21,168 bases of DNA from positions 1 to 21,168 of IMG/VR virus record IMGVR_UViG_3300032116_001531; one strand, 5' to 3'. This stretch comes from a virus. Position numbers and translations under genes: made by a program. The notes under the pieces were generated by a model. It was not told the DNA's origin and did not search any database. It was given only the letters and a program-made list of their open reading frames with translations. Positions 6,381 to 21,168 of the stretch are shown here, piece after piece (within the stretch, counting starts at the first letter, position 1; the number at the start of each line of letters is the position of its first letter).

Positions 6381-6798
6381 CGCGCGACCTCCAGACGAAG
6401 GTTTCGAGAGCCGGAAAATCGGGATCGACCGGGCGCATGCCGATGAGACGGTGCAGCTTGCGGCCCGGTATCCACCCTTGTTCGGTTCTGGAAACCACAG
6501 CGACGGGCGCAGATTGCGCGAGGCGGCGCATTGTTAAGTGGGCAAGCCGCACCAGAAATCGCACGGTCGCTGTTGGCAGATCAGGCCGGGAGAAGGTCCA
6601 CAACTCGAAAGCGGTTTCACCTTCCGGTGTTTGCCCCAGAGGCCAGAAGCCGATCACGGCCGCCAATCCCTCAGCATCATCCACAGCCGCCATTTCCGAG
6701 CGGAAGCACTGGAGCGCCAGCGTGCGGCTTTCGCGCCGCCGCATCCGGGGAGCGGCCAGCGCATGAACATCATGGATCGAACCCGCGCGCACCTGCAT
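6238..6798 (-). CDS. T7 gp13-like / GNAT-like fold protein
   Basis: This 186-aa protein starts with V-R-A-G-S-I-x-D-V-x-A-L-A, as in GNAT N-acetyltransferases and in the related T7 gp13 internal virion protein family. It continues with a 'GLAAVIGFWPL' strand, 'FELWTFSRPDLPTATVRFLVRLAHLTM' (strand then helix), 'APVAVVSRTEQGWIPGRKLHRLIGM' (the usual 'WL..LGF' position), and 'LETFVWRS' as the last core strand. Residues after about 150 are basic and low-complexity, overlap the small Gln-rich gene, and may be unstructured. No clear acetyl-CoA binding R/Q-x-x-G-x-G/A loop is visible, so catalytic activity is doubtful. The ATG at 6798 overlaps the large terminase stop (TGATG). Confidence 0.62.
   Translation of the reverse strand: MQVRAGSIHDVHALAAPRMRRRESRTLALQCFRSEMAAVDDAEGLAAVIGFWPLGQTPEGETAFELWTFSRPDLPTATVRFLVRLAHLTMRRLAQSAPVAVVSRTEQGWIPGRKLHRLIGMRPVDPDFPALETFVWRSRDGENRQEKSRIARLPVRRGRKQKPEAGVATGATTTAGVASRAAADRE
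6532..6542. repeat. 11-bp repeat TGTTAAGTGGG, copy 2 (inside the gp13-like gene)
   Basis: Exact second copy, same orientation as the others. It is inside coding sequence and forces His-Leu-Thr codons CAC TTA ACA; TTA is a rare codon in this GC-rich DNA. Keeping it within a gene suggests a DNA- or RNA-level role. Confidence 0.6.
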
Positions 6799-8360
6799 CA
6801 GATCACGCTGAAATCGCTTTTGATGATGGTATTGGAGCCGCGTTGCTCGCGCTCGCGACGGCGGGAAATCCCGATATTGGCCGCTTCCTCGATAATCACC
6901 GCGCGGCCGCGCATGCCAAGCACGGCATATTGAAGCGCATCCTGCACATCGGCGAATTTGTTCTTGAAGGGTTTGATGACTTCCGTGGAGCCGCTGGAAA
7001 CTTTCTTGTTGACGTAATGCGAAACGAAGCCTTTGCGCAGCATCTTGCAGCCTGGTGCGAGAAGAAGCATCGGCGTATGGGCATCGATCATGCGGGTGAG
7101 AAGCCCACGCACGCCGTCGAGCCGGATACCAATTTCATTGGAGGGTGCCGGCATGATGGTGACACTCAGCGCCAGCGACAGAGTTTCCATCCAGGCCAGT
7201 TCGCCCATGGAACGATCGGCCCCATACCAGCCGGCCGGATCACCCCATGCGCCGCCGATGATGGCCTTGGGGGAAACGGTGGCAAGCGCGACTTTGCACA
7301 TTTCGGCAAAGGTCGAGATATGCGTCACGCCATCCTTCTGCGGGACAACCTCAGCAAGTGACCGAATTTGGCCGGCCTCCGTTGACTGGAGGATGACCAT
7401 GGCCGGGTGGCCCGCCTGGTCAAAACCGAGATACACCGGCATTTGCGGATCGTAGGCCAGCGGTTCGGTCGAATAGTGGATCTGATCGTTGAATTCGGGG
7501 AAGACGATTTCCCCCTCGCGTGACGGGCCAAACTCGCCATGCACGAAGCGGCGCACCTCATGCGGCGGCCGCACCTTTGCATCGGTTTCATACTTGGCCC
7601 GCGTGACAGGCGGGAAAAACTCGGCATTCGGCGCGAGGCCGGAAGGCTGGCGGAAGAGGTTGAAGAACGGGTTTTTCTTGTCGATGCATTCCTCATGCAC
7701 CCAATGATCGACGTCAGGGGGGTTGAGCGAGCCCCACACGCGGCGCGGCAAGACCTGTTCGCCAGCCTCCATGCGCCGCACCAGCTCCGGCGTGAGATAT
7801 TGCCCGCCTGGATAACGACCCGTGCGCCCAAACAGGAAGGTTGGAGCCTTGCGTTCGAACAGGTCGATTTCGTCAAAGCATCCCCAGCTCGGCTGATAGC
7901 CGCGCATCATCGCCTCAATCGACACATCCCCCAGGCCAAAGAAATCCACGACCATTTCCAGCGCGATATTCTTGACCAGCGCGCGGAACGTGTAGCGGCC
8001 CGGCCGATCCTGCCCGCCCTCGAACTTGGCACCGGGAAAATCGCGCGGGAACACCGAAAACCAGCTGGGAAGCGTGTTCTTGTAAAGGTCGCGATAACTG
8101 TTTCGCAGGATGCAGCCATGGGCACGGATCACGCCATCATTGCAGATAGGCATGCGCAAGGTTTGGATCAGCGCGGTTTGCATGCTGGCCGTGGTCTTGC
8201 CCGAGCCTTCCGGCCCCATCAGCAGATCGCACGGCCCCTCCGAGAGCATGAAGGCCTGCGCGATCGGCTTCGGCGTGCGGAAATTCAGCCGGTTTGGGTC
8301 GTATTCGGTTGCCTTGTCCCAGTTCTCGAATTGTGGCGCGCCAAGCGGATCGTTTTCCAT
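6798..8360 (-). CDS. terL: Terminase large subunit (packaging ATPase/nuclease)
   Basis: This 520-aa protein is the DNA-packaging motor and headful or site-specific nuclease. The ATPase domain carries Walker A GPEGSGKT (49-56), Walker B WGCFDEID (159-166) and coupling motif SLNPP (211-215). The RNase H-like nuclease domain shows FDQAG (D314), GDPAG (D374) and FADVQDALQY (D471/D474), the three acidic positions expected. I place the start at the ATG at 8360 because GGAGG lies 8 bases upstream; a longer frame to 8432 has no comparable signal. The TGA of the upstream ORF overlaps this ATG (TGATG). Sequence style is that of terminases paired with T7-type portals. Confidence 0.92.
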   Translation of the reverse strand: MENDPLGAPQFENWDKATEYDPNRLNFRTPKPIAQAFMLSEGPCDLLMGPEGSGKTTASMQTALIQTLRMPICNDGVIRAHGCILRNSYRDLYKNTLPSWFSVFPRDFPGAKFEGGQDRPGRYTFRALVKNIALEMVVDFFGLGDVSIEAMMRGYQPSWGCFDEIDLFERKAPTFLFGRTGRYPGGQYLTPELVRRMEAGEQVLPRRVWGSLNPPDVDHWVHEECIDKKNPFFNLFRQPSGLAPNAEFFPPVTRAKYETDAKVRPPHEVRRFVHGEFGPSREGEIVFPEFNDQIHYSTEPLAYDPQMPVYLGFDQAGHPAMVILQSTEAGQIRSLAEVVPQKDGVTHISTFAEMCKVALATVSPKAIIGGAWGDPAGWYGADRSMGELAWMETLSLALSVTIMPAPSNEIGIRLDGVRGLLTRMIDAHTPMLLLAPGCKMLRKGFVSHYVNKKVSSGSTEVIKPFKNKFADVQDALQYAVLGMRGRAVIIEEAANIGISRRREREQRGSNTIIKSDFSVI

Positions 8361-8686
8361 CACCAGCCCCTCCAGAACCCAAACCCGAGCCCGATTGCGG
8401 CGATGCCCCACCCCGGCCCCAGCAGGAGCCAAGCCGAAAAGTTCGGTTTTTTTTGAAAATCGACTTCAGGGTGAGCCGGAAGGCCCCGAGGGGGGAGGGG
8501 CGCGCGCGCGTTTTGCCCCCCTCGCGCGCGCGTGGCCGGCGCGAAAACAGGGGGGGCGGGGGGTTGGCGCGAGGCGAGGCCAGGCGCGGCCGGAAACAGG
8601 GGGGACGGCGCGAAAATGCCATGCATCCTGCTGTTATAGCCGATAGCACATCGCTCATATGTGCCTGAAATCGTGCGGTTATTCAT
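8360..8686 (-). CDS. Putative Pro/Ala-rich protein with C-terminal membrane segment, between terS and terL
   Basis: This 108-aa frame starts at the ATG at 8686, which overlaps the small terminase stop by 8 bases. Its TGA overlaps the large terminase ATG, so the frame fits the operon exactly at both ends. The N-terminus (MNNRTISGTYERCAIGYNSR) is ordinary; residues 24-80 are Pro/Ala/Arg-rich low-complexity from a G/C homopolymer tract; residues about 84-106 (SAWLLLGPGWGIAAIGLGFG) form one plausible transmembrane helix. An A8 run on the coding strand (complement of 8447-8454) just before the helix could allow slippage. I do not recognise a family. The good junctions argue for a gene, but the low-complexity middle argues that part may be non-coding or structural DNA. 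Confidence 0.42.
   Translation of the reverse strand: MNNRTISGTYERCAIGYNSRMHGIFAPSPLFPAAPGLASRQPPAPPVFAPATRARGGQNARAPLPPRGLPAHPEVDFQKKPNFSAWLLLGPGWGIAAIGLGFGFWRGW
8488..8532. repeat. G/C homopolymer hairpin with (CG)n tracts
   Basis: GAGGGGGG (8488-8495) pairs with CCCCCCTC (8516-8523), and two copies of CGCGCGCGCG (8501-8510, 8523-8532) lie in and beside the loop. Further G-runs (8540-8553) follow, with two near-copies of GGCGCGAAAA nearby (8529-8538 and 8608-8617). The tract sits between the terminase genes. It could be a packaging-site structure or simply a GC slippage region. Confidence 0.4.
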
Positions 8687-9269
8687 CGTTCTGGCTCCGA
8701 TCGTCGGAACTTTCGACGGGATTTCCCGCCTCCGATGCCGCAAAGCGCGCTTGCTCCTGGTCGATCGCGATCAGGTCCAGGAAGCTCGAAGGCTCAAGGC
8801 CACCCTTAGCCACCTTCAACGCGGATGGATCGAGACCGCCCAGGTTCACGTTGATTTCCGGCCGCACCGCCTCGCCCTTGTCATCCTCTGCCGCGCGCTT
8901 GGCATGCTGATATGGCAACACCGCCTCTAGGCACGCCCTTTTGAAGAAGAGCACATCCATCAGCGTCATATCGTCCTTGATATGCAATTCGCGGCCGATT
9001 TCTTTCATTTCCCGCGCTAGATCGCGCGGATCAGCCATGCCCAACCGTGCCAGCTCATAGAGCGCATCCCCTAATCTGCGCTGGATGAAACCGGCCATTT
9101 CGGCCGTGCGGCGGTTCGGCCGGCCCGCGCGCCCGCCCAACGGCCGCGCCTTCAGCAGCGGCCCGGCCTCGCCCTCGAACAAATCCGGCGCGGCCGTGTG
9201 TGTGACAGTCGCCACCCCTGATTTTGCACCCTCGCGCTGATCGAGAACACCCTTTGGACCAGATGACAC
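8679..9269 (-). CDS. terS: Terminase small subunit
   Basis: This 196-aa protein probably selects phage DNA for packaging. I chose the GTG at 9269 because AGGGGG lies about 6 bases upstream; a TTG at 9293 in frame has no such signal. Residues 44-75 ('GGRAGRPNRRTAEMAGFIQRR') show the GGRxGxxNRRT motif followed by a helix that is common at the N-terminal DNA-binding part of small terminases of this type. A helical centre ('DDMTLMDVLFFKRACLEAVLPYQHAKRAA') and the 'EINVNLGG' strand resemble the oligomerisation region. The location next to the large terminase supports the call. Confidence 0.72.
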   Translation of the reverse strand: MSSGPKGVLDQREGAKSGVATVTHTAAPDLFEGEAGPLLKARPLGGRAGRPNRRTAEMAGFIQRRLGDALYELARLGMADPRDLAREMKEIGRELHIKDDMTLMDVLFFKRACLEAVLPYQHAKRAAEDDKGEAVRPEINVNLGGLDPSALKVAKGGLEPSSFLDLIAIDQEQARFAASEAGNPVESSDDRSQNDE

Positions 9270-9379
9270 GGAAAACCCCCTCACTTTGCGCAACGCCGGG
9301 CAAGATGGTTGCGATGGTTAGGCCGTCATAACCACTTCATAACCAGTTTTATGAAGCAATTTCAGAGACTTAATTATAT

Positions 9380-9462
9380 TGGTTGGTTGGTTAGGCTCTT
9401 TCTCTCTCTCTTGATGCGCGCATGTGCACATTAGCGCGCGCGCGCGAGTAACCAACCAACCA
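9380..9462. repeat. Nested inverted repeat (14-bp arms around a palindrome)
   Basis: The outer arms TGGTTGGTTGGTTA (9380-9393) and TAACCAACCAACCA (9449-9462) are perfect complements. Inside lie GCGCGC arms (9416-9421, 9434-9439) around the 10-bp palindrome ATGTGCACAT (9422-9431), and a CT-tract (9397-9412). The element could form a cruciform or a long RNA hairpin upstream of the terminase genes. Confidence 0.75.
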
Positions 9463-9597
9463 TTGCCATTAAGTCTTTGAAAATGCTCCTGAAAAAAGGT
9501 TGCGAGGCTCAATAACCATCTGCAACCAACCAACCAACCCCATGCCCGCAAGGCAGGCGCACCAATCGGCCCCCTATTCATCCCGTGGATTGGAGCG

Positions 9598-9793: not shown

Positions 9794-10696
9794 TCAATCG
9801 AGGAGATGGGTGCTGCACTCGGCCATGGGGATGCTGGTCCCGTTGGCGATGCGCCGTCCCGGCCCGATGCGCTTCGGTCCGGTGGCATGGGCTCCGGGAA
9901 TGGCTTGCAGATGCTTCCGCCAATCCTCGCGCCCCACCATGATTTCCGCGAGGAACGGGCTGGCATTGGCCACCCACAAATGCGCTTCATCCACGCGCAA
10001 CCCGCACTCGAAAAGCGCTTTGCGAACAGCATCATCGCCGTTCAGCGCGGCATGCAGCGCATCTTCCACGCTCCATCGCGTGTCACCGATGGCGAGGCGC
10101 GCCTGCAACAGCCGCAGCAGCAGCAACCGGCCTTCATCCGGCTCGCCGCCGCGCCCGGCGCTGCATGGCAGGCCGAATTCGTGCCACAGCTTGCGGGCAT
10201 GGGCCACGCCGAGGTTCATGCGCGCCTCGCGCACGATATCGAGGCGCAGGCGCATCAGGCTCATGGGCTCGCCGCCCACCATGGGTTCGGGCGCGGCCGG
10301 CATGGCGGTTCCCAGCGGGCGCGGGGCGGCCAAGGGCTCGGGCTCGGGTTCCGCGCGATATTGGCCGGTCTGGCGGATGGAGGGGATCACCTCATGCGCC
10401 AGCCAGCGCTTGAAGCGCTCAGCCTCGCTCTTGCGCGAGGTAAACACCAGCCGATAGACGCCGGGTTCAGAGATGATCGTCATTTCCTGCGCGCCACCGC
10501 CGCGCTCAGAGCGTGAAAGGGGGTCGGCAGTAGCGACCCCCTTTTCGTCATCATCGAGCCGCCCCAGCGCGTCCTTGTGGTTCACCAGGTTGAGCACCCG
10601 GCACACGTCCTTACCCACAAACCACGGCGCACCGTCGCGCATCACCACGCGCACAAGGTCGTCATCGAAAACATAGGGGATTATCTGCGCGCTCAT
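9794..10696 (-). CDS. BRO-N domain antirepressor
   Basis: This 300-aa protein has a BRO-N domain at residues 8-112: 'VFDDDLVRVVMRDGAPWFVGKDVCRVLNL' then 'ALGRLDDDEKGV', 'MTIISEPGVYRLVFTSRKSEAERFKRWLAHEVIPSIRQTGQY'. This is the standard order (F..lRvv..dg.pwFvakDVc..Lg...n....l...ek.....st.gG.q....isE.GlY.Li..Srk.ea..Fk.Wv..evlPsIr.tG.Y). A Pro-rich linker leads to a C-terminal domain (145-300) that I do not recognise, though 'VREARMNLGVAHARKLWHEFGLP' is similar to phage regulatory C-termini. Such proteins bind and inactivate phage repressors. It stands alone between the late and early modules. The ATG at 10696 has AGGA about 9 bases upstream. Confidence 0.85.
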   Translation of the reverse strand: MSAQIIPYVFDDDLVRVVMRDGAPWFVGKDVCRVLNLVNHKDALGRLDDDEKGVATADPLSRSERGGGAQEMTIISEPGVYRLVFTSRKSEAERFKRWLAHEVIPSIRQTGQYRAEPEPEPLAAPRPLGTAMPAAPEPMVGGEPMSLMRLRLDIVREARMNLGVAHARKLWHEFGLPCSAGRGGEPDEGRLLLLRLLQARLAIGDTRWSVEDALHAALNGDDAVRKALFECGLRVDEAHLWVANASPFLAEIMVGREDWRKHLQAIPGAHATGPKRIGPGRRIANGTSIPMAECSTHLLD

Positions 10697-11765: not shown

Positions 11766-11926
11766 CACAATCCCGTCCATTTGGGTTGAACAAGCTCAAC
11801 CGTGACGATGCTTTGGGGATGCTCTTTGCGCAGACTGGCCGCGCATTTTTCTGCGCTGTCGCGCGTTTTGTAATGTCCGCGCCATGGCCGGCCATCGATA
11901 AACACACGAAATCGATGCTTACCCAT
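11765..11926 (-). CDS. Small hypothetical protein (53 aa) after the helicase gene
   Basis: This small gene reads MGKHRFRVFIDGRPWRGHYK... and ends QSIVTVELVQPKWTGL. Its ATG at 11926 overlaps the helicase stop by 8 bases, and its TGA overlaps the next ATG, so it fills the space between two genes exactly. The composition (basic start, alternating strand-like pattern V-x-I-x-G, a central Ala/Lys helix) looks like a real beta-alpha-beta mini-domain. The function is unknown. Confidence 0.6.
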   Translation of the reverse strand: MGKHRFRVFIDGRPWRGHYKTRDSAEKCAASLRKEHPQSIVTVELVQPKWTGL

Positions 11927-13856
11927 CAATCACGTCCTCCTGTTCAGCCCCGGTCGCCTCACGGTCGTAGCCGGCCAGATCGATAATCGTGCAGCGCTCC
12001 AGAACGCGGCCGATCTTCACATGCGGCGGAATATCCGGCCCCGTCAGCACCACATGCGCGGGCGCCTGGCGCAGGGTGCGGGTCCATGCGCCATCGCGCC
12101 ATTTGGTGCCAGAGAACAGCGCGTTCAGGCTTGGCCCCTTATGCGGCACGGCGAACAGGTAATGGGTTCGCCTGTCCTCATGCCGCCGCGCGAATTCGGC
12201 ATCCGCAAAAAGCGCATCCCGGAGCTTTTTCGCGCGCCCATCCTCCAGATCGATGATGCCAAGGCCCGCGCAGGCGAAGCGCTCGCGCACGGCTTTCGTG
12301 TCCATGTGCCCGGCTTCATGGTCCTTCAGCACCGCGCCCACGGTCGGCTTGTTGCCGTTGGTCCAGGCCACGATCGTTTGCGCCAGCAGGTGCTCCAGGC
12401 AGTTGCGCCAGTTGTCGGAAATCAGGCTTCTTTCATAGGCGGTTTTCTCGCGCATCCATTCGCCCAGCTGTTCCTCGCCGGCCGTCACCGGCAAGCCCGC
12501 ATCTTCCATGCCGGCATCGCCCAGCAGGGTTTGCGCCGAGGCGAGCAGGGTGCCGAATGTGTCGCCGAAACGCGCATCGAGCCCCGCGAGGCGAAACACC
12601 TTGCGCCACGCCACCAGATGCCCGTTGAATTCCTGCCACCCATCCATCAGCCGGCGCAGCAGCATGCGGCCGGTCTGGTGCGGATCATGCGGAAACTCGC
12701 TTGTCAGCGTTCCCGGCGCGAAGCGATCGAGATTGAAAATCGCCATGCGGGAATAATCTTGCGCCTCAAATTGCGGCGGGTTGATCGCGGCCGCGAAAAC
12801 CGGGCTTTGCAGGCGGAATTTCGTGCCCTTGTGATCCTGCCCGCCGCGCACGCGCAAGGAGCCTGAATACATCTGGCGGATCATCTCGATCAGCTGGTTG
12901 GCGCGTTGGTTGTTGTCGGCCTTTTGCTCGAATTCATCGAGCGCGATCGGCCGGCTATCCTGCCCGAGAATTTGCACAATGCCGGCCTCCGAAGCGTTGC
13001 CGGCATCGAGCATCGCATCGCCCAGCAAGGCCTTGATAAAGCCATGGCCTTCCATGCCGATCAGCGAGGATTTGCCCACGCCGCGATCGCCCACAATCAT
13101 CGAGAACGGCCGTTGCTCCAGCGCACCGGAATAGAACGCGCAGCCAATCGCGCCCAGCAGCAACACCGCATCCAGCTCGCGCCGCTGGAACCGCCAGGTC
13201 ATCAGGTGTTTCAGCACTTGAGGCCCAGGGCTGTCCTCGATCGGGATTTCATCCTGCCATGGCGCGAGAATGCCCGGCGCGGCCGCATAGAATTTCCCGC
13301 CCAGCATGCCGGGGTCGCGCTGTTTCAACTCGCCATCATGCACCACGAAAACCGCATCGCCGGCATGCCACACGAACAGCCCCGGAGATTGGCGGCCGGC
13401 CGCCCAGCCGCCACGGCCGCGCACCTTGTCTATGGGGTCGAACAGCCCTTGCCGCGCCGCCACATTCAGCAGGCAATTCCAAGCTTGCCGCGCCTCGACA
13501 TTCGAGAACACCGGCCCATCCTTGTTCACTTGCGGCCAATGGTGAAACACGAAATTGGAGTGCCCCTTGAACAAATCGAACAGCACCTCCGGCTTTCGCT
13601 TGGATGCCGGCACGCTGATGATCTGACCCAGGGTATCCACCACATGCATCACGTCCCCTTGCACGCCGAGAACGTTGATCGGGCAATTACCCGGCAACTT
13701 CTGGTCCGGGTAGCCGTCCCATTCGTTATAGTTGTAATGCCAATTGTCCTTACCCGGTCGTGGGCTCGAAACCTCACGCTCGCGCGAGCGCGTCATATCC
13801 GCGCTGATATCGCGAAAAAGCCCAACCAGCGTGCGAAGACCGTCAGAAATCGCCAC
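11919..13856 (-). CDS. AAA+ / SF3-like phage replicative helicase
   Basis: This 645-aa protein starts at a GTG (13856) with GAGG 6 bases upstream. The NTPase core lies in the centre: Walker A GDRGVGKSS (256-264), Walker B PIALDEFE (303-310) and a sensor-1-like AAINPP (356-361). The N-terminal 230 residues ('WHYNYNEWDGYPDQKLPGNCPINVLG', 'WHAGDAVFVVHDG') look like the start of phage/plasmid helicases that act with a separate primase. The C-terminal 200 residues probably form a helical and winged-helix region. The TOPRIM primase of the same operon lies about 800 bp upstream, so the two would form the replication fork machinery. Confidence 0.75.
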   Translation of the reverse strand: MAISDGLRTLVGLFRDISADMTRSREREVSSPRPGKDNWHYNYNEWDGYPDQKLPGNCPINVLGVQGDVMHVVDTLGQIISVPASKRKPEVLFDLFKGHSNFVFHHWPQVNKDGPVFSNVEARQAWNCLLNVAARQGLFDPIDKVRGRGGWAAGRQSPGLFVWHAGDAVFVVHDGELKQRDPGMLGGKFYAAAPGILAPWQDEIPIEDSPGPQVLKHLMTWRFQRRELDAVLLLGAIGCAFYSGALEQRPFSMIVGDRGVGKSSLIGMEGHGFIKALLGDAMLDAGNASEAGIVQILGQDSRPIALDEFEQKADNNQRANQLIEMIRQMYSGSLRVRGGQDHKGTKFRLQSPVFAAAINPPQFEAQDYSRMAIFNLDRFAPGTLTSEFPHDPHQTGRMLLRRLMDGWQEFNGHLVAWRKVFRLAGLDARFGDTFGTLLASAQTLLGDAGMEDAGLPVTAGEEQLGEWMREKTAYERSLISDNWRNCLEHLLAQTIVAWTNGNKPTVGAVLKDHEAGHMDTKAVRERFACAGLGIIDLEDGRAKKLRDALFADAEFARRHEDRRTHYLFAVPHKGPSLNALFSGTKWRDGAWTRTLRQAPAHVVLTGPDIPPHVKIGRVLERCTIIDLAGYDREATGAEQEDVIDG

Positions 13857-14236: not shown

Positions 14237-14642
14237 TGCCGCAACCCTTCAGGTTTAGATCACCGATCACCTTGGCCAGCACATGCGCGGCAATCTCGCG
14301 AGCAATATCGTTGCCCAGCGCGAGCAAGAATTCCTCGCGCGATTGGTGCCAGCGGCGCGCCCGTGAGACGCCGAGATTGAGGCCATTGATAGAAAAATCC
14401 ACGCGGACCGCGTGTTCATTTGTTGCAGGCCGGTATTCGCTTTGCGCGACAGCCTTCAGGTAATTGTTATCAAGCCGCATGGCATCGACCAGGCGCGCGC
14501 GGCTTTCCTGTTCCAGCTCGCGCAGCAGGCGCGCCGCATCGGCCCCGTTGGGCGCGGGCAGCGCTTCCACATGCACATTCACATCAGGCGCGCACCCTGG
14601 AGCCGGAAAGAAAAAAACGTTGTCACCCTTGGCCATCATCAT
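14229..14642 (-). CDS. Hypothetical early protein (137 aa)
   Basis: Three ATGs lie in a row (14642, 14639, 14636). I choose the first, which follows GAGGGG closely and overlaps the primase stop (ATGA). The residues 'VNVHVEALPAPNGADAARLLRELEQ' and 'FSINGLNLGVSRARRWHQSREEFLLALG' suggest an alpha/beta protein of unknown family. It is translated directly after the primase and may act with it; no motif shows how. Confidence 0.52.
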   Translation of the reverse strand: MMMAKGDNVFFFPAPGCAPDVNVHVEALPAPNGADAARLLRELEQESRARLVDAMRLDNNYLKAVAQSEYRPATNEHAVRVDFSINGLNLGVSRARRWHQSREEFLLALGNDIAREIAAHVLAKVIGDLNLKGCGND

Positions 14643-15691
14643 CCCCTCGATTTTACCAGATCGTTCAAATCGTTCACTTGCGGCGGCGGCCGCAGCACCG
14701 CCACGGGCAGACCATGGCGGCGGATCGCGGCTTGCGCGCGCTCGAAATCCCGCAGGGCGGCCGGGTTGTTCCAATCGTTATGCGGGCAAAGGATGATGCC
14801 GGTGCAGCCCTCCCCACCGCGCACATGCTTGAGGCTGTGGAGGCTTGGCGCGACCTCTGCCGCATCATCCCGGTTTTGCGCCATCATGGCGGTCCAACCG
14901 TTTTCCAGCCCTTCATTCACCACCTTGCGATGGCCGGGCTTCGAGGATCGGCGCAGATAAATCAGCCCGTCTTGAACCTCGCCCATCATGAGCTTGGCCT
15001 TCTCCACCGGAGCCTTGCCGCGCCCGTCACGCGCGAGGAAGGTGAAATGCCCGGCGAGCTGGTTTCCGTCCGCGTCATCGATCGCGGAGACAATGCAGGG
15101 AAAGCGCGGCCCCGGCACGCGCCGCCGCCCGTCCGTGGTGGCACCCCGCCACCATTCCACCGAAGGGTGGAAGCGCACGCGATCACTCAGGCCGTGCAGC
15201 ATGGCCAATGGCGTGCCGCGCGCTTCCATGTATCGCTCGGCCAGCGAGCCGCCGAGCGGCCGCGCCGCCTCGAACAATTCGCGCGCCCGGCCGCGCATCC
15301 AATCCCGCCGCTTCTGCTCGCGCTCGCGCGCCGAAACATCCTCTTTCACCGCGCGCGTGGCATCCACCGGCGGCGCAGCACCGCCCAGCCAGGAGCGCGC
15401 CCATTCGATCGCGCCTTTGAGATCGAGCCGGTTCACCGCCATGATGAGGTGCAGCAGATCGCCGCCATTGGTTCCCGGCTTGTCAGGCCTGCCTTGCCAG
15501 AAACCGACGCGGCCGGCTTTCGAGCCCTTCACCACCACCGAAACCGCACCGATATCGCCATGGTTCTTGGAGCTGGAAGCCCATTCGCCGCCCTCCATCT
15601 GGCCGGCCGGCAGCAGCGTTTGCGCCAGCGCCAGCGCGCGCATGTTCAGCGCATCGTTGAGCGGCCCGATGGTGTTGCGCGGCGCGGTCAT
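14639..15691 (-). CDS. TOPRIM-domain phage primase
   Basis: This 350-aa protein starts at the ATG at 15691, which overlaps the upstream stop (ATGA); the frame continues to 15874 but that part duplicates the membrane gene in another frame. Residues 40-105 ('GDIGAVSVVVKGSKAGRVGFWQG', 'GGDLLHLIMAVNRLDLKGAIEWARSWLG') resemble the N-terminal region of phage primases lacking an obvious zinc site. The TOPRIM part is at 255-345: VVNEGLENGWTA (E260), GIILCPHNDWNNP (304-309) and a late DLNDLVK (D341, D344). In most relatives the middle motif reads D-x-D; here His304 stands at the first position. It would make primers for the helicase downstream. Confidence 0.75.
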   Translation of the reverse strand: MTAPRNTIGPLNDALNMRALALAQTLLPAGQMEGGEWASSSKNHGDIGAVSVVVKGSKAGRVGFWQGRPDKPGTNGGDLLHLIMAVNRLDLKGAIEWARSWLGGAAPPVDATRAVKEDVSAREREQKRRDWMRGRARELFEAARPLGGSLAERYMEARGTPLAMLHGLSDRVRFHPSVEWWRGATTDGRRRVPGPRFPCIVSAIDDADGNQLAGHFTFLARDGRGKAPVEKAKLMMGEVQDGLIYLRRSSKPGHRKVVNEGLENGWTAMMAQNRDDAAEVAPSLHSLKHVRGGEGCTGIILCPHNDWNNPAALRDFERAQAAIRRHGLPVAVLRPPPQVNDLNDLVKSRG

Positions 15692-15891
15692 CCGCGCCAG
15701 CTCCGCTTGATCCAGAGCGCAAACACATCGAAAGCCGCACAGGCGCAGATCGCGGCCGCCAACCCGCCCAGCACATAAACGGCCCAGCCGGCCGCATTGG
15801 CCTGCACCAGATAAAGCCCGGCCGCCACACACAGCCGCGCCCATAATTCGGCCGCGCACGCGCCCACGATGCAAAGGATGACGCGCCTCAT
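15688..15891 (-). CDS. Small two-helix membrane protein (67 aa)
   Basis: This gene begins at the ATG at 15891, which overlaps the preceding stop (ATGA), and its stop overlaps the primase start. Residues 4-30 (VILCIVGACAAELWARLCVA...) and 38-61 (AGWAVYVLGGLAAAICACAA) are likely membrane helices, with a basic C-terminus (KRSWRG). The layout resembles a small holin, but it lies in the early operon, far from any lysis gene, so a role in early takeover or exclusion is as likely. No family recognised. Confidence 0.6.
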   Translation of the reverse strand: MRRVILCIVGACAAELWARLCVAAGLYLVQANAAGWAVYVLGGLAAAICACAAFDVFALWIKRSWRG

Positions 15892-16277
15892 TTCCCCGCC
15901 CTCACCTTGAACGTGCTGGCCTTCAGGTGCGGGCGCTCGCCCAGCACGTCGCTGGCCTTCCGCCAGCTGCGCCGCCCATCGCGCTCGCGCGCATCCTCTT
16001 GCCGGAAATCCGAGGCGAGGCGGCACAAAGCCTGCCACACCCCCAGGAGCTTCGCGCCCTTGCGCTCGAAGCGCAGGCTCATCATCAGATCGTAGACCAG
16101 CGCACCACGCCGGGCGCGGCGGTTGTGGAATGCCTTGCGGCATCCCGTGCAGCAGAAATCATCGCCCGCCTTGCGCGGCTGAAACTCCCCGCCGCACTCC
16201 AGACACGCGACTAGACGGGCGCGATAGGAAGGCCGCGCCGACTCGGTGACGGGGTTAGGCGCTACACCGGGCGTCAT
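15888..16277 (-). CDS. Zinc-ribbon early protein
   Basis: This 129-aa protein has one zinc-binding pattern: C25-x2-C28 (CLECGGEF) and C42/C43-x2-C46 (FCCTGCRKAFHNRRARRG). That 'FC...CRKAFHNRRARRG' form is known from small phage and prophage proteins of alphaproteobacteria; its function is not established. The following part ('ALVYDLMMSLRFERKGAKLLGVWQALCRLASDF') is helical. Start and stop both overlap neighbouring genes by ATGA, and a nucleic-acid-binding role in early regulation or replication is probable. Confidence 0.62.
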   Translation of the reverse strand: MTPGVAPNPVTESARPSYRARLVACLECGGEFQPRKAGDDFCCTGCRKAFHNRRARRGALVYDLMMSLRFERKGAKLLGVWQALCRLASDFRQEDARERDGRRSWRKASDVLGERPHLKASTFKVRAGK

Positions 16278-16666
16278 GGCGCGCCCTCGCCAGCCACAGC
16301 GCGCGCCACGCGATCAATCAACCGATCGAAATCCGCGTCGTCGCGCTTGTCCTCGATCTGTTGCACGCACAGGCACACGGCCGCGCGCGTCAGACCCAAG
16401 GCCTCGGCAATGCCCATTTGCGTGAAACCCGCCTCGGTATGGGCGAGATAGGTCGCAATCGCCCGCGCCTTGTGCGCACGCAGCGTCAGGGCATCAGCCG
16501 CCACCCCGCGCCGGTTCGTTCCGGGCCTGCACGCATGGCACAGGGCCACGGGCACGCGCAGCTCGGCCGCCGCCGCCACGAGGAAGCCGCCCCATACGAG
16601 GCGCACGGGCAACCATGGCACGGGAGCCCCGAGGCGCGGCGCATCCTGTTCTGCCGCTGTCATCAT
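16274..16666 (-). CDS. DnaA C-terminal-like helix-turn-helix protein
   Basis: Residues 66-122 (KARAIATYLAHTEAGFTQMGIAEALGLTRAAVCLCVQQIEDKRDDADFDRLIDRV) follow the DnaA domain IV pattern: R-x-IA-x-YL, a helix-turn-helix with 'IAEALGLTRAAV', then '-x-IE-x-x-x-x-D-x-x-F...L'. DnaA domain IV binds DnaA boxes in duplex DNA. Here the domain stands alone, with a 65-residue N-terminus holding a hydrophobic segment (WLPVRLVWGGFLVAAAAEL) and Cys43/Cys46 (CHAC). It is carried in the early operon before the replication genes, so it may be an origin-recognition protein or regulator. Start overlaps the upstream stop (ATGA). Confidence 0.6.
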   Translation of the reverse strand: MMTAAEQDAPRLGAPVPWLPVRLVWGGFLVAAAAELRVPVALCHACRPGTNRRGVAADALTLRAHKARAIATYLAHTEAGFTQMGIAEALGLTRAAVCLCVQQIEDKRDDADFDRLIDRVARAVAGEGAP

Positions 16667-20953: not shown

Positions 20954-20999
20954 GCTTCCCAAGCTGAACGCGCGGGTTCGATTCCCGCTACCCGCTCCA
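20954..20999 (+). other. tRNA-Gly(CCC) 3' fragment = probable attR core
   Basis: The 46 bases from GCTTCCCAAGC to the 3' ...CCGCTCCA match the 3' part of a glycine tRNA: end of the anticodon stem, anticodon CCC, variable loop, T-arm (GCGGGTTCGATTCCCGC) and 3' acceptor with CCA. The 5' half is absent; the bases before it (20941-20953) do not pair as a tRNA. This is what is expected at the downstream edge of a prophage inserted into a tRNA gene, next to int. The full tRNA should be at the left end, outside the window. Confidence 0.8.
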
Positions 21000-21168
21000 A
21001 CCATAACCTATTGAATTATCAGAAATCCTTCCATCGGATGGCACCCGCTTTGGAGGCGCTACAGCGGAACAAAAGCGCATCGAAAGCCCAGCAACGGAAC
21101 ACAAAGTCCCGTAAAACTTCCGATGGCTGTTCGCGTGCCGTTCCTTATCGTAAGCTTTTCATGCCGGC
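21000..21168. other. Flank beyond attR (host or second element)
   Basis: This 169-bp stretch holds no complete gene. It carries two copies of CGGAACA (21065-21071, 21095-21101) and at 21105-21122 a sequence nearly identical to 20871-20889 on the prophage side. It could be host DNA, or the end of another integrated element that uses the same tRNA. A frame opens at 21123 (ATGGCTGTTCGC...) and reaches the window edge with no stop; too short to judge. Confidence 0.45.

Follow-up and report, generated by a model that had tools for sequence, protein, structure and literature searches.

The array and the genes around it

The stretch of DNA analysed here (the window, 21,168 nucleotides) is an IMG/VR virus record that we read as an integrated prophage. 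Its genes run leftward, all those named here lying on the minus strand: a DUF7146 primase (14639-15874; PHROG 510), a 645-aa AAA+ helicase (11919-13856; PHROG 21086), a Bro-N antirepressor and others (Bro-N at 9794-10696), then an array of short boxes, a putative terminase small subunit (TerS, 8679-9272) and the terminase large subunit (TerL, 6798-8330, start not settled). TerS is named from its position, starts with GTG after an SD-like GAGGGGG and gave neither a Pfam or PHROG match nor a relative in the phage search. TerL is 28.9% identical to the TerL of BcepC6B over 88% of the query, and an alignment search of genome contigs with it returned no relative. Only 34 bp separate the end of the array from the start codon of TerS, and 2.4 kb separate it from the helicase gene. 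At the right end of the window, positions 20960-21010 read as if a tRNA-Gly attachment site had kept its 3' half, and a comparable tRNA-Gly end with host flank is found in a relative, the prophage IMGVR_UViG_3300026302_000043 (G001; locus L013, about 930-985); ARAGORN found no whole tRNA. The segment GCGCAAAGTGAGGGGGTTTTCC before the TerS start (9270-9292) is identical in G001 and is longer than a Shine-Dalgarno sequence needs to be.

The array as a whole (9306-9536, about 230 bp), a putative replication origin, is supported by its density of boxes and by a homologous array in G001. It consists of TGGTT/AACCA boxes spaced 8 bp, with 14 copies in 9290-9560 (271 bp), where the density elsewhere predicts 0.37, and all six copies of TGGTTA/TAACCA in the whole window fall within it. 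Word counts place an outer TGGTT pair at 9306 and 9315 (9306-9319, plus strand) and outer AACCA boxes at 9514, 9524, 9528 and 9532 (9514-9536, minus strand). The inner clusters, found by reading, are TGGTTggtTGGTT with an 8-bp period (9380-9392, plus strand) and its inverted counterpart AACCAaccAACCA (9450-9462, minus strand). Between the left outer pair and the left inner cluster, reading and word count together identify an AACCA pair that is re-inverted with respect to the inner boxes (9327-9345, minus strand), its two CATAACCA boxes occupying 9327-9334 and 9338-9345 at a spacing of 11 bp, which agrees with the one helical turn given in the first-pass annotation.

That annotation had also described perfect 14-bp arms enclosing GC arms and a central palindrome, preceded by an AT-rich stretch, and direct reading bears this out: the arms are TGGTTGGTTGGTTA at 9380-9393 and TAACCAACCAACCA at 9449-9462, the palindrome ATGTGCACAT occupies 9422-9431 within its GC arms, and 25-bp windows starting at 9330-9370 are 68-76% AT. 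The structure is larger than was described, the 14-bp arms being part of an imperfect, ungapped inverted repeat of 53 nt (9341-9393/9449-9501, 42 of 53 positions complementary) with a score of 28.8; when the whole window was dinucleotide-shuffled 60 times, the highest score was 16.6. A tandem of four AACC units, the other element noted, is indeed present at 9524-9539; comparison with relatives, by reading, indicates that the repeat unit is TGGTT with its 8-bp period, as in TGGTTggtTGGTT, and that the intervening GGTT and the AACC tandem are incidental to it. An apparent avoidance of TGGTTA outside the array (none in the window where 1.1 are expected, and two in G001 where 4.3 are expected, the expectations being computed from shorter words) was set aside, the counts being too small.

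The core between the inner clusters (9394-9448) carries, on the minus strand, GCGCGCGCGCTAATGTGCA[C/T]ATGCGCGCAT, which is conserved in G001. Within it lies an alternating purine-pyrimidine run of 18 bp (9414-9431), the longest in the 21,168 bp; alternation over the whole core is ordinary (0.59, reached by 20% of windows), and only the run stands out. The centre is GC-rich and alternating, and the AT-rich segments, candidate melting sites, lie instead between the inner and outer boxes, at 9346-9379 (about 72-76% AT, with an AT-rich counterpart in G001) and 9463-9500 (60-68% AT).

The suggestion in the first-pass annotation that a DnaA-C-like protein of the early operon could bind these repeats is not supported: the protein encoded at 16274-16666 (minus strand) has only sub-threshold MarR/HTH matches and was not found in MT835534 (tblastn, E 0.01), and the array contains no DnaA box TTATNCACA with one mismatch allowed, the window as a whole having four one-mismatch sites where 4.7 are expected. 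GC3 skew in the window makes no clean switch at the array, and a DNA search of the region against phages gave no match. Among the papers listed by literature searches on the origins of BcepC6B, BPP-1 and sphingomonad phages, none concerned this array.

Conservation in a relative and in the helicase family

G001 is 82% identical to the window in TerL, 78% in the helicase and 61% in TerS. In G001, too, the array immediately precedes TerS, at about 3.9 kb from the helicase gene; the genes preceding the array differ from those in the window, Bro-N having no tblastn match in the G001 loci. The homologous inverted repeat (L004:5794-5846/5902-5954) pairs at 38 of 53 positions, with a score of 20.0 against a shuffle maximum of 16.8 (40 shuffles). 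TGGTTA occurs eight times in the 17.2-kb G001 locus L007, every time within the array; elsewhere there are two copies in the rest of G001 and one in G002 beyond the window. Conservation of the arms with compensatory change, which had been proposed as a check, is what the comparison shows: GGTTGGTTGGTTA in the window has become GGTTGTGTGGTTA in G001, with the matching change in the opposite arm.

Such paired changes could also belong to an RNA element, a hairpin with an attenuating or stabilising role in the leader at the 5' end of the terminase transcript. The region 9370-9470 folds as RNA at -44 kcal/mol (z = -6.2), and three of its 28 predicted pairs are altered on both sides between the window and G001. 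Mirrored DNA boxes, however, yield the same compensation, and the direct and outer copies, which are unpaired, carry the same lineage-specific word as the paired ones. The Rfam scan adds no convincing match: its sole hit, at 9081-9152, lies outside the array (E 0.76; 19 bits, where the gathering score is 52). We regard an RNA hairpin as the least probable of the readings considered here, and a highly improbable one.

A search with a helicase alignment returned 30 viral and nine genome loci, the latter all Sphingomonadales or labelled SPHING1. After eight near-identical loci had been dropped, 31 of these 39, together with the window and MT835534, made up 33 non-duplicate loci. A mirrored box array lies downstream of the helicase gene in 29 of the 33, with ten box words; we assigned these arrays from scan output and reading, and those of L064 and L065 are weak. 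Of the remaining four loci, L042, L048 and L067 end less than 0.5 kb from the helicase gene and L060 shows no array. The box word differs by lineage (TGGTT, GGAAC, GGTTC, GTTAC, GCTAC, CGGACT, GTGTCT, TTCCC and TGACAC, with CTTACGG in L045). In many of the 17 loci that were printed out, the order is the same: boxes, an AT-rich segment, inner boxes, the core, inverted inner boxes, a second AT-rich segment, a re-inverted pair and an outer pair. The distance from array to helicase gene is about 0.05-0.4 kb in many relatives and larger in others. The strongest inverted repeat of the set, in L057 (8752-9014; 75 of 91), has CGGACT boxes. MT835534 has similarly arranged GGTTCT boxes, its inverted repeat (32 of 47, score 14.0) ranking sixth among those listed for its record. 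An exact-word scan ranks the arrays of the window, BcepC6B and MT835534 below first place; since their box copies vary, we rely for these three arrays on reading and on the scan for inverted repeats.

The alternating run recurs in this family. The longest run of a locus falls within the array in 25 of the 29 window-type loci, where 0.46 would be expected by length. A count made without our array calls places it between the helicase gene and TerL in 25 of the 28 loci that have both genes (4.80 expected by length); in both counts the loci, being related, are not independent of one another. The exceptions to the first count are L045, L055, L074 and L029; in L045 the region considered took in only half of its array, and there the alternating run supplied the rest of an array of which the k-mer scan had found no more than a part. 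Outside the window-type family, the top alternating run lies in three of nine arrays, all of them ties.

Which gene the boxes follow bears on whether the array could be a packaging site (pac or cos), where TerS would bind the boxes and TerL would cut nearby. Small-terminase rings can bind direct repeats. The array adjoins TerS in the window and, despite the different preceding genes, in G001 too, and among window-type loci the box word follows TerL no less closely than it follows the helicase (AUC 0.90 against 0.89-0.915). The association of box and helicase is itself imperfect, as L053 and L056, with TGGAAC boxes, have helicase C-termini only 16-27% identical to those of L041, L043, L044 and L054. 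Column contrasts within this family, drawn from only 11 different-box pairs, give a signal that is not confined to the C-terminus. Also on the side of packaging, another record, IMGVR_UViG_3300031951_001276 (L003, L005), matches the window at 100% along 9215 bp and starts at window position 9215; its start, about 90 bp past the array, may reflect a break that the repeat introduced in assembly.

Eight phages with a TerL related to that of the window or of BPP-1 and without such helicases (Rollin, VA-RY-3, Ss1, Y3, DC33, zth2-2, RapA and AP1; the first four covered as loci of 7-9 kb) speak against packaging, six of the eight having no box dyad near TerS. Rollin offers a point in its favour in that its top inverted repeat (20 of 25) lies just before the gene preceding TerL, at a score of 14.0 that is within the shuffle range. 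In VA-RY-3 a cluster of TTTTATC words lies upstream of the late genes, at a distance of 1.4 kb, and in Caulobacter phage RapA a weak dyad of TGTAACC is found next to a VapE-type primase (L027, 2697-2879). The RapA record carries TerL annotations at both ends, and Limnohabitans phage DC33 (L024, PQ492659.1) is recorded as Inoviridae, yet encodes a protein 61% identical to the TerL of BPP-1.

Arrays after primase-helicase genes and the likely reader of the box

Ten further loci were chosen by their primase or helicase. Four of them, phi105, Bella96, phiSP119-3 and phi1422, have mirrored iteron pairs 10-57 bp after that gene, and all four are absent from the TerL match lists, which again argues against a packaging site. 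In Bella96 the array ranks second among the inverted repeats of the locus, with 17.0 against 18.0 for the first, and phi1422 encodes a 23.5% relative of the window helicase. Arrays are weak in A9Y, MR14 and Wrath, and none is evident after the primase in PY223, MQ-4 and MT835930.

BPP-1, which has TerL relatives of its own, was reached through the annotation of BcepC6B, a match of the window TerL. BPP-1, BcepC6B and Acinetobacter phage 4316 each have the strongest inverted repeat of their genome on the stretch from a D5_N primase-helicase gene to TerS, which may include small genes as well; in BcepC6B the repeat stands at the start of the record and the primase at its end. Each of the three has its own 9-bp box pair. 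Their TerS proteins belong to different Pfam families (Sf6_terminase in BPP-1, Terminase_2 in BcepC6B and 4316), and tblastn with the window TerL found nothing in the BPP-1 and 4316 genomes, two further points against packaging.

This family allowed the relation between box and protein to be followed in a larger sample. Of 80 viral loci with BPP-1-type primase-helicases, 77 were usable, three being dropped for having less than 250 bp downstream. In 68 of the 77, an inverted repeat within 500 bp downstream of the gene outscores all the 500-bp control windows taken from that locus; in each of the nine others, a strict inverted array of two boxes is found within 1100 bp. Strict arrays of this kind (two-box, 9-bp, inverted, within 1100 bp) are present in 60 of 79 loci examined, these nine included, and use 31 distinct words.

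Pairs of primase-helicases at least 80% identical (217 with different boxes, 47 with the same box), taken from the 60 loci with strict arrays, were then compared column by column. Fifteen of the 20 columns most strongly associated with the box lie in the last 85 of 854 residues, where 2.0 would be expected, and the columns differing with the box are concentrated at residues 815-843. The contrast is 0.267, a value that none of 2000 within-cluster permutations matched (maximum 0.138); same-box pairs are closer overall (0.948 against 0.874), for which the permutation corrects only in part. In pairs of 45-80% identity the box-associated signal is not C-terminal. At the column of L093 residue 833, chosen as the top column of the scan, aspartate goes with box base C in 19 of 22 cases and asparagine with box base G in eight of 12 (16 of 19 and seven of 11, respectively, over 47 non-identical segments). 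These patterns point to the C-terminus of the primase-helicase as the likely reader of the box in BPP-1-type phages.

That the box-linked residues map to the primase-helicase, in a scan over the columns of this protein, also tells against packaging, which we consider very unlikely. A third possibility is that the boxes are operators for a phage transcription regulator of the late genes, as their place at the junction of early and late genes and the small HTH-like genes nearby (in the window, and bbp27) might suggest. Against it stand the position of the arrays after a helicase or primase-helicase gene in two families and the covariation of the boxes with the C-terminal domain of the primase-helicase in one of them; an operator array seems to us very unlikely.

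A probable replication origin and its known counterparts

The first-pass annotation had left a replication origin, a packaging site and an RNA element side by side. Comparison supports the first well and the other two less, and we consider it highly probable, from sequence comparison, that the array is the replication origin of this phage. Its place near TerS and away from the helicase gene, in both the window and G001, counts against this reading, as do the GC3 skew, the GC-rich core, the equally close tracking of TerL by the box in window-type loci, column contrasts there that extend beyond the C-terminus, and the primases with weak arrays or no evident array after them. BPP-1-type primases and window-type helicases have no tblastn match to each other, and for that reason the covariation carries over to the window only through the shared layout and fold class; because the family that covaries is not related in sequence to the window helicase, we have lowered our confidence in an origin to this level and raised that in the rival readings slightly.

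In the mechanism that we infer, the 645-aa helicase, as proposed initiator, would bind the TGGTT boxes through its C-terminal domain, so that a pair of facing hexamers would assemble where the inner clusters mirror each other. Melting would occur in the AT-rich segments that separate the inner from the outer boxes, the alternating core between the hexamers would absorb torsion or be remodelled, and the DUF7146 primase would then start replication in both directions. We speculate further, and more tentatively, as we hold it somewhat less than an even chance, that sphingomonad phages share an inside-out version of a SaPI-like origin, in which mirrored boxes surround an alternating core that is kept for a Z-DNA-like flip or for torsion between the facing hexamers, and in which the box serves as a rapidly changing password, recognised by a handful of residues of the helicase C-terminus. 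If this is true, the sequence of the protein could reveal the specificity of its origin, as suggested by the D/N code of the BPP-1-type phages. The paired change of box and C-terminus in that family makes origin recognition by the helicase directly testable and offers a way to locate origins in uncultured prophages.

The link to known systems comes from the predicted structure of the helicase. Its AF2 model, built on an alignment of 30 sequences, has a pLDDT of 83.8, and its top Foldseek matches are viral primase-helicases and the C-terminal region of NrS-1; a sequence-profile search of the PDB with the 645-aa protein gave no helicase match. VIA-align places the SCCmec protein Cch first (Z 15.7, 420 residues, model 60-631, rmsd 5.6) and the SaPI5 primase-helicase third (Z 14.2, 389 aligned, rmsd 7.1), and MCM proteins reach Z values of up to 14.5 over the AAA+ part; matches less than 1 Z apart are ties, and Cch leads the best MCM by no more than 1.2, although its alignment spans almost the entire model. 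As modelled, the window helicase has the fold of the Cch and SaPI Rep helicases, the matches to Cch and SaPI5 both extending over most of the model.

SaPI Rep recognises iterons downstream of its own gene through its C-terminal domain, the C-terminal domain of Cch2 binds direct repeats downstream of its gene, at a putative origin (PMC7581432), and PICI origins consist of two iteron sets around an AT-rich region (PMC6092414). The window array likewise has mirrored sets of short iterons, in opposite orientation, downstream of the gene for a self-loading helicase with a matching predicted fold. It differs in having a GC-rich alternating core, in having its AT-rich segments outside the inner sets and in being carried by tailed phages, and it lies 2.4 kb away from the initiator gene, where SaPI and PICI origins lie immediately 3' of it. 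Its distance from the helicase gene and a centre that is not AT-rich keep us from filing it as a strict member of the SaPI/PICI class; judged by its layout, it nevertheless appears to work like a SaPI-type origin with a GC-rich core. The SCCmec elements supply the best fold match in Cch and, in Cch2, a comparable use of downstream repeats, whereas their putative origin has three 5-nt iterons in place of two mirrored clusters with outer boxes.

The reported recognition sequence of the NrS-1 prim-pol, 5'-TTTGGTTA-3', occurs in the G001 array (L004, about 5942), and the NrS-1 authors suggest origin use. There the site has two copies in the NrS-1 genome and is recognised for primer synthesis, and its presence in G001 is probably a coincidence. 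The arrays of BPP-1, BcepC6B and 4316 share with that of the window their mirrored two-box iterons and their position, past a D5_N primase-helicase gene and ahead of the terminase genes; they are unlike it in their 9-bp period and AT-rich inner dyad, and their protein has a fused prim-pol domain and no sequence similarity to the window helicase. Taken together, the loci examined suggest that tailed phages use a layout closely similar to SaPI/PICI origins, with a GC-rich alternating core in the sphingomonad phages.
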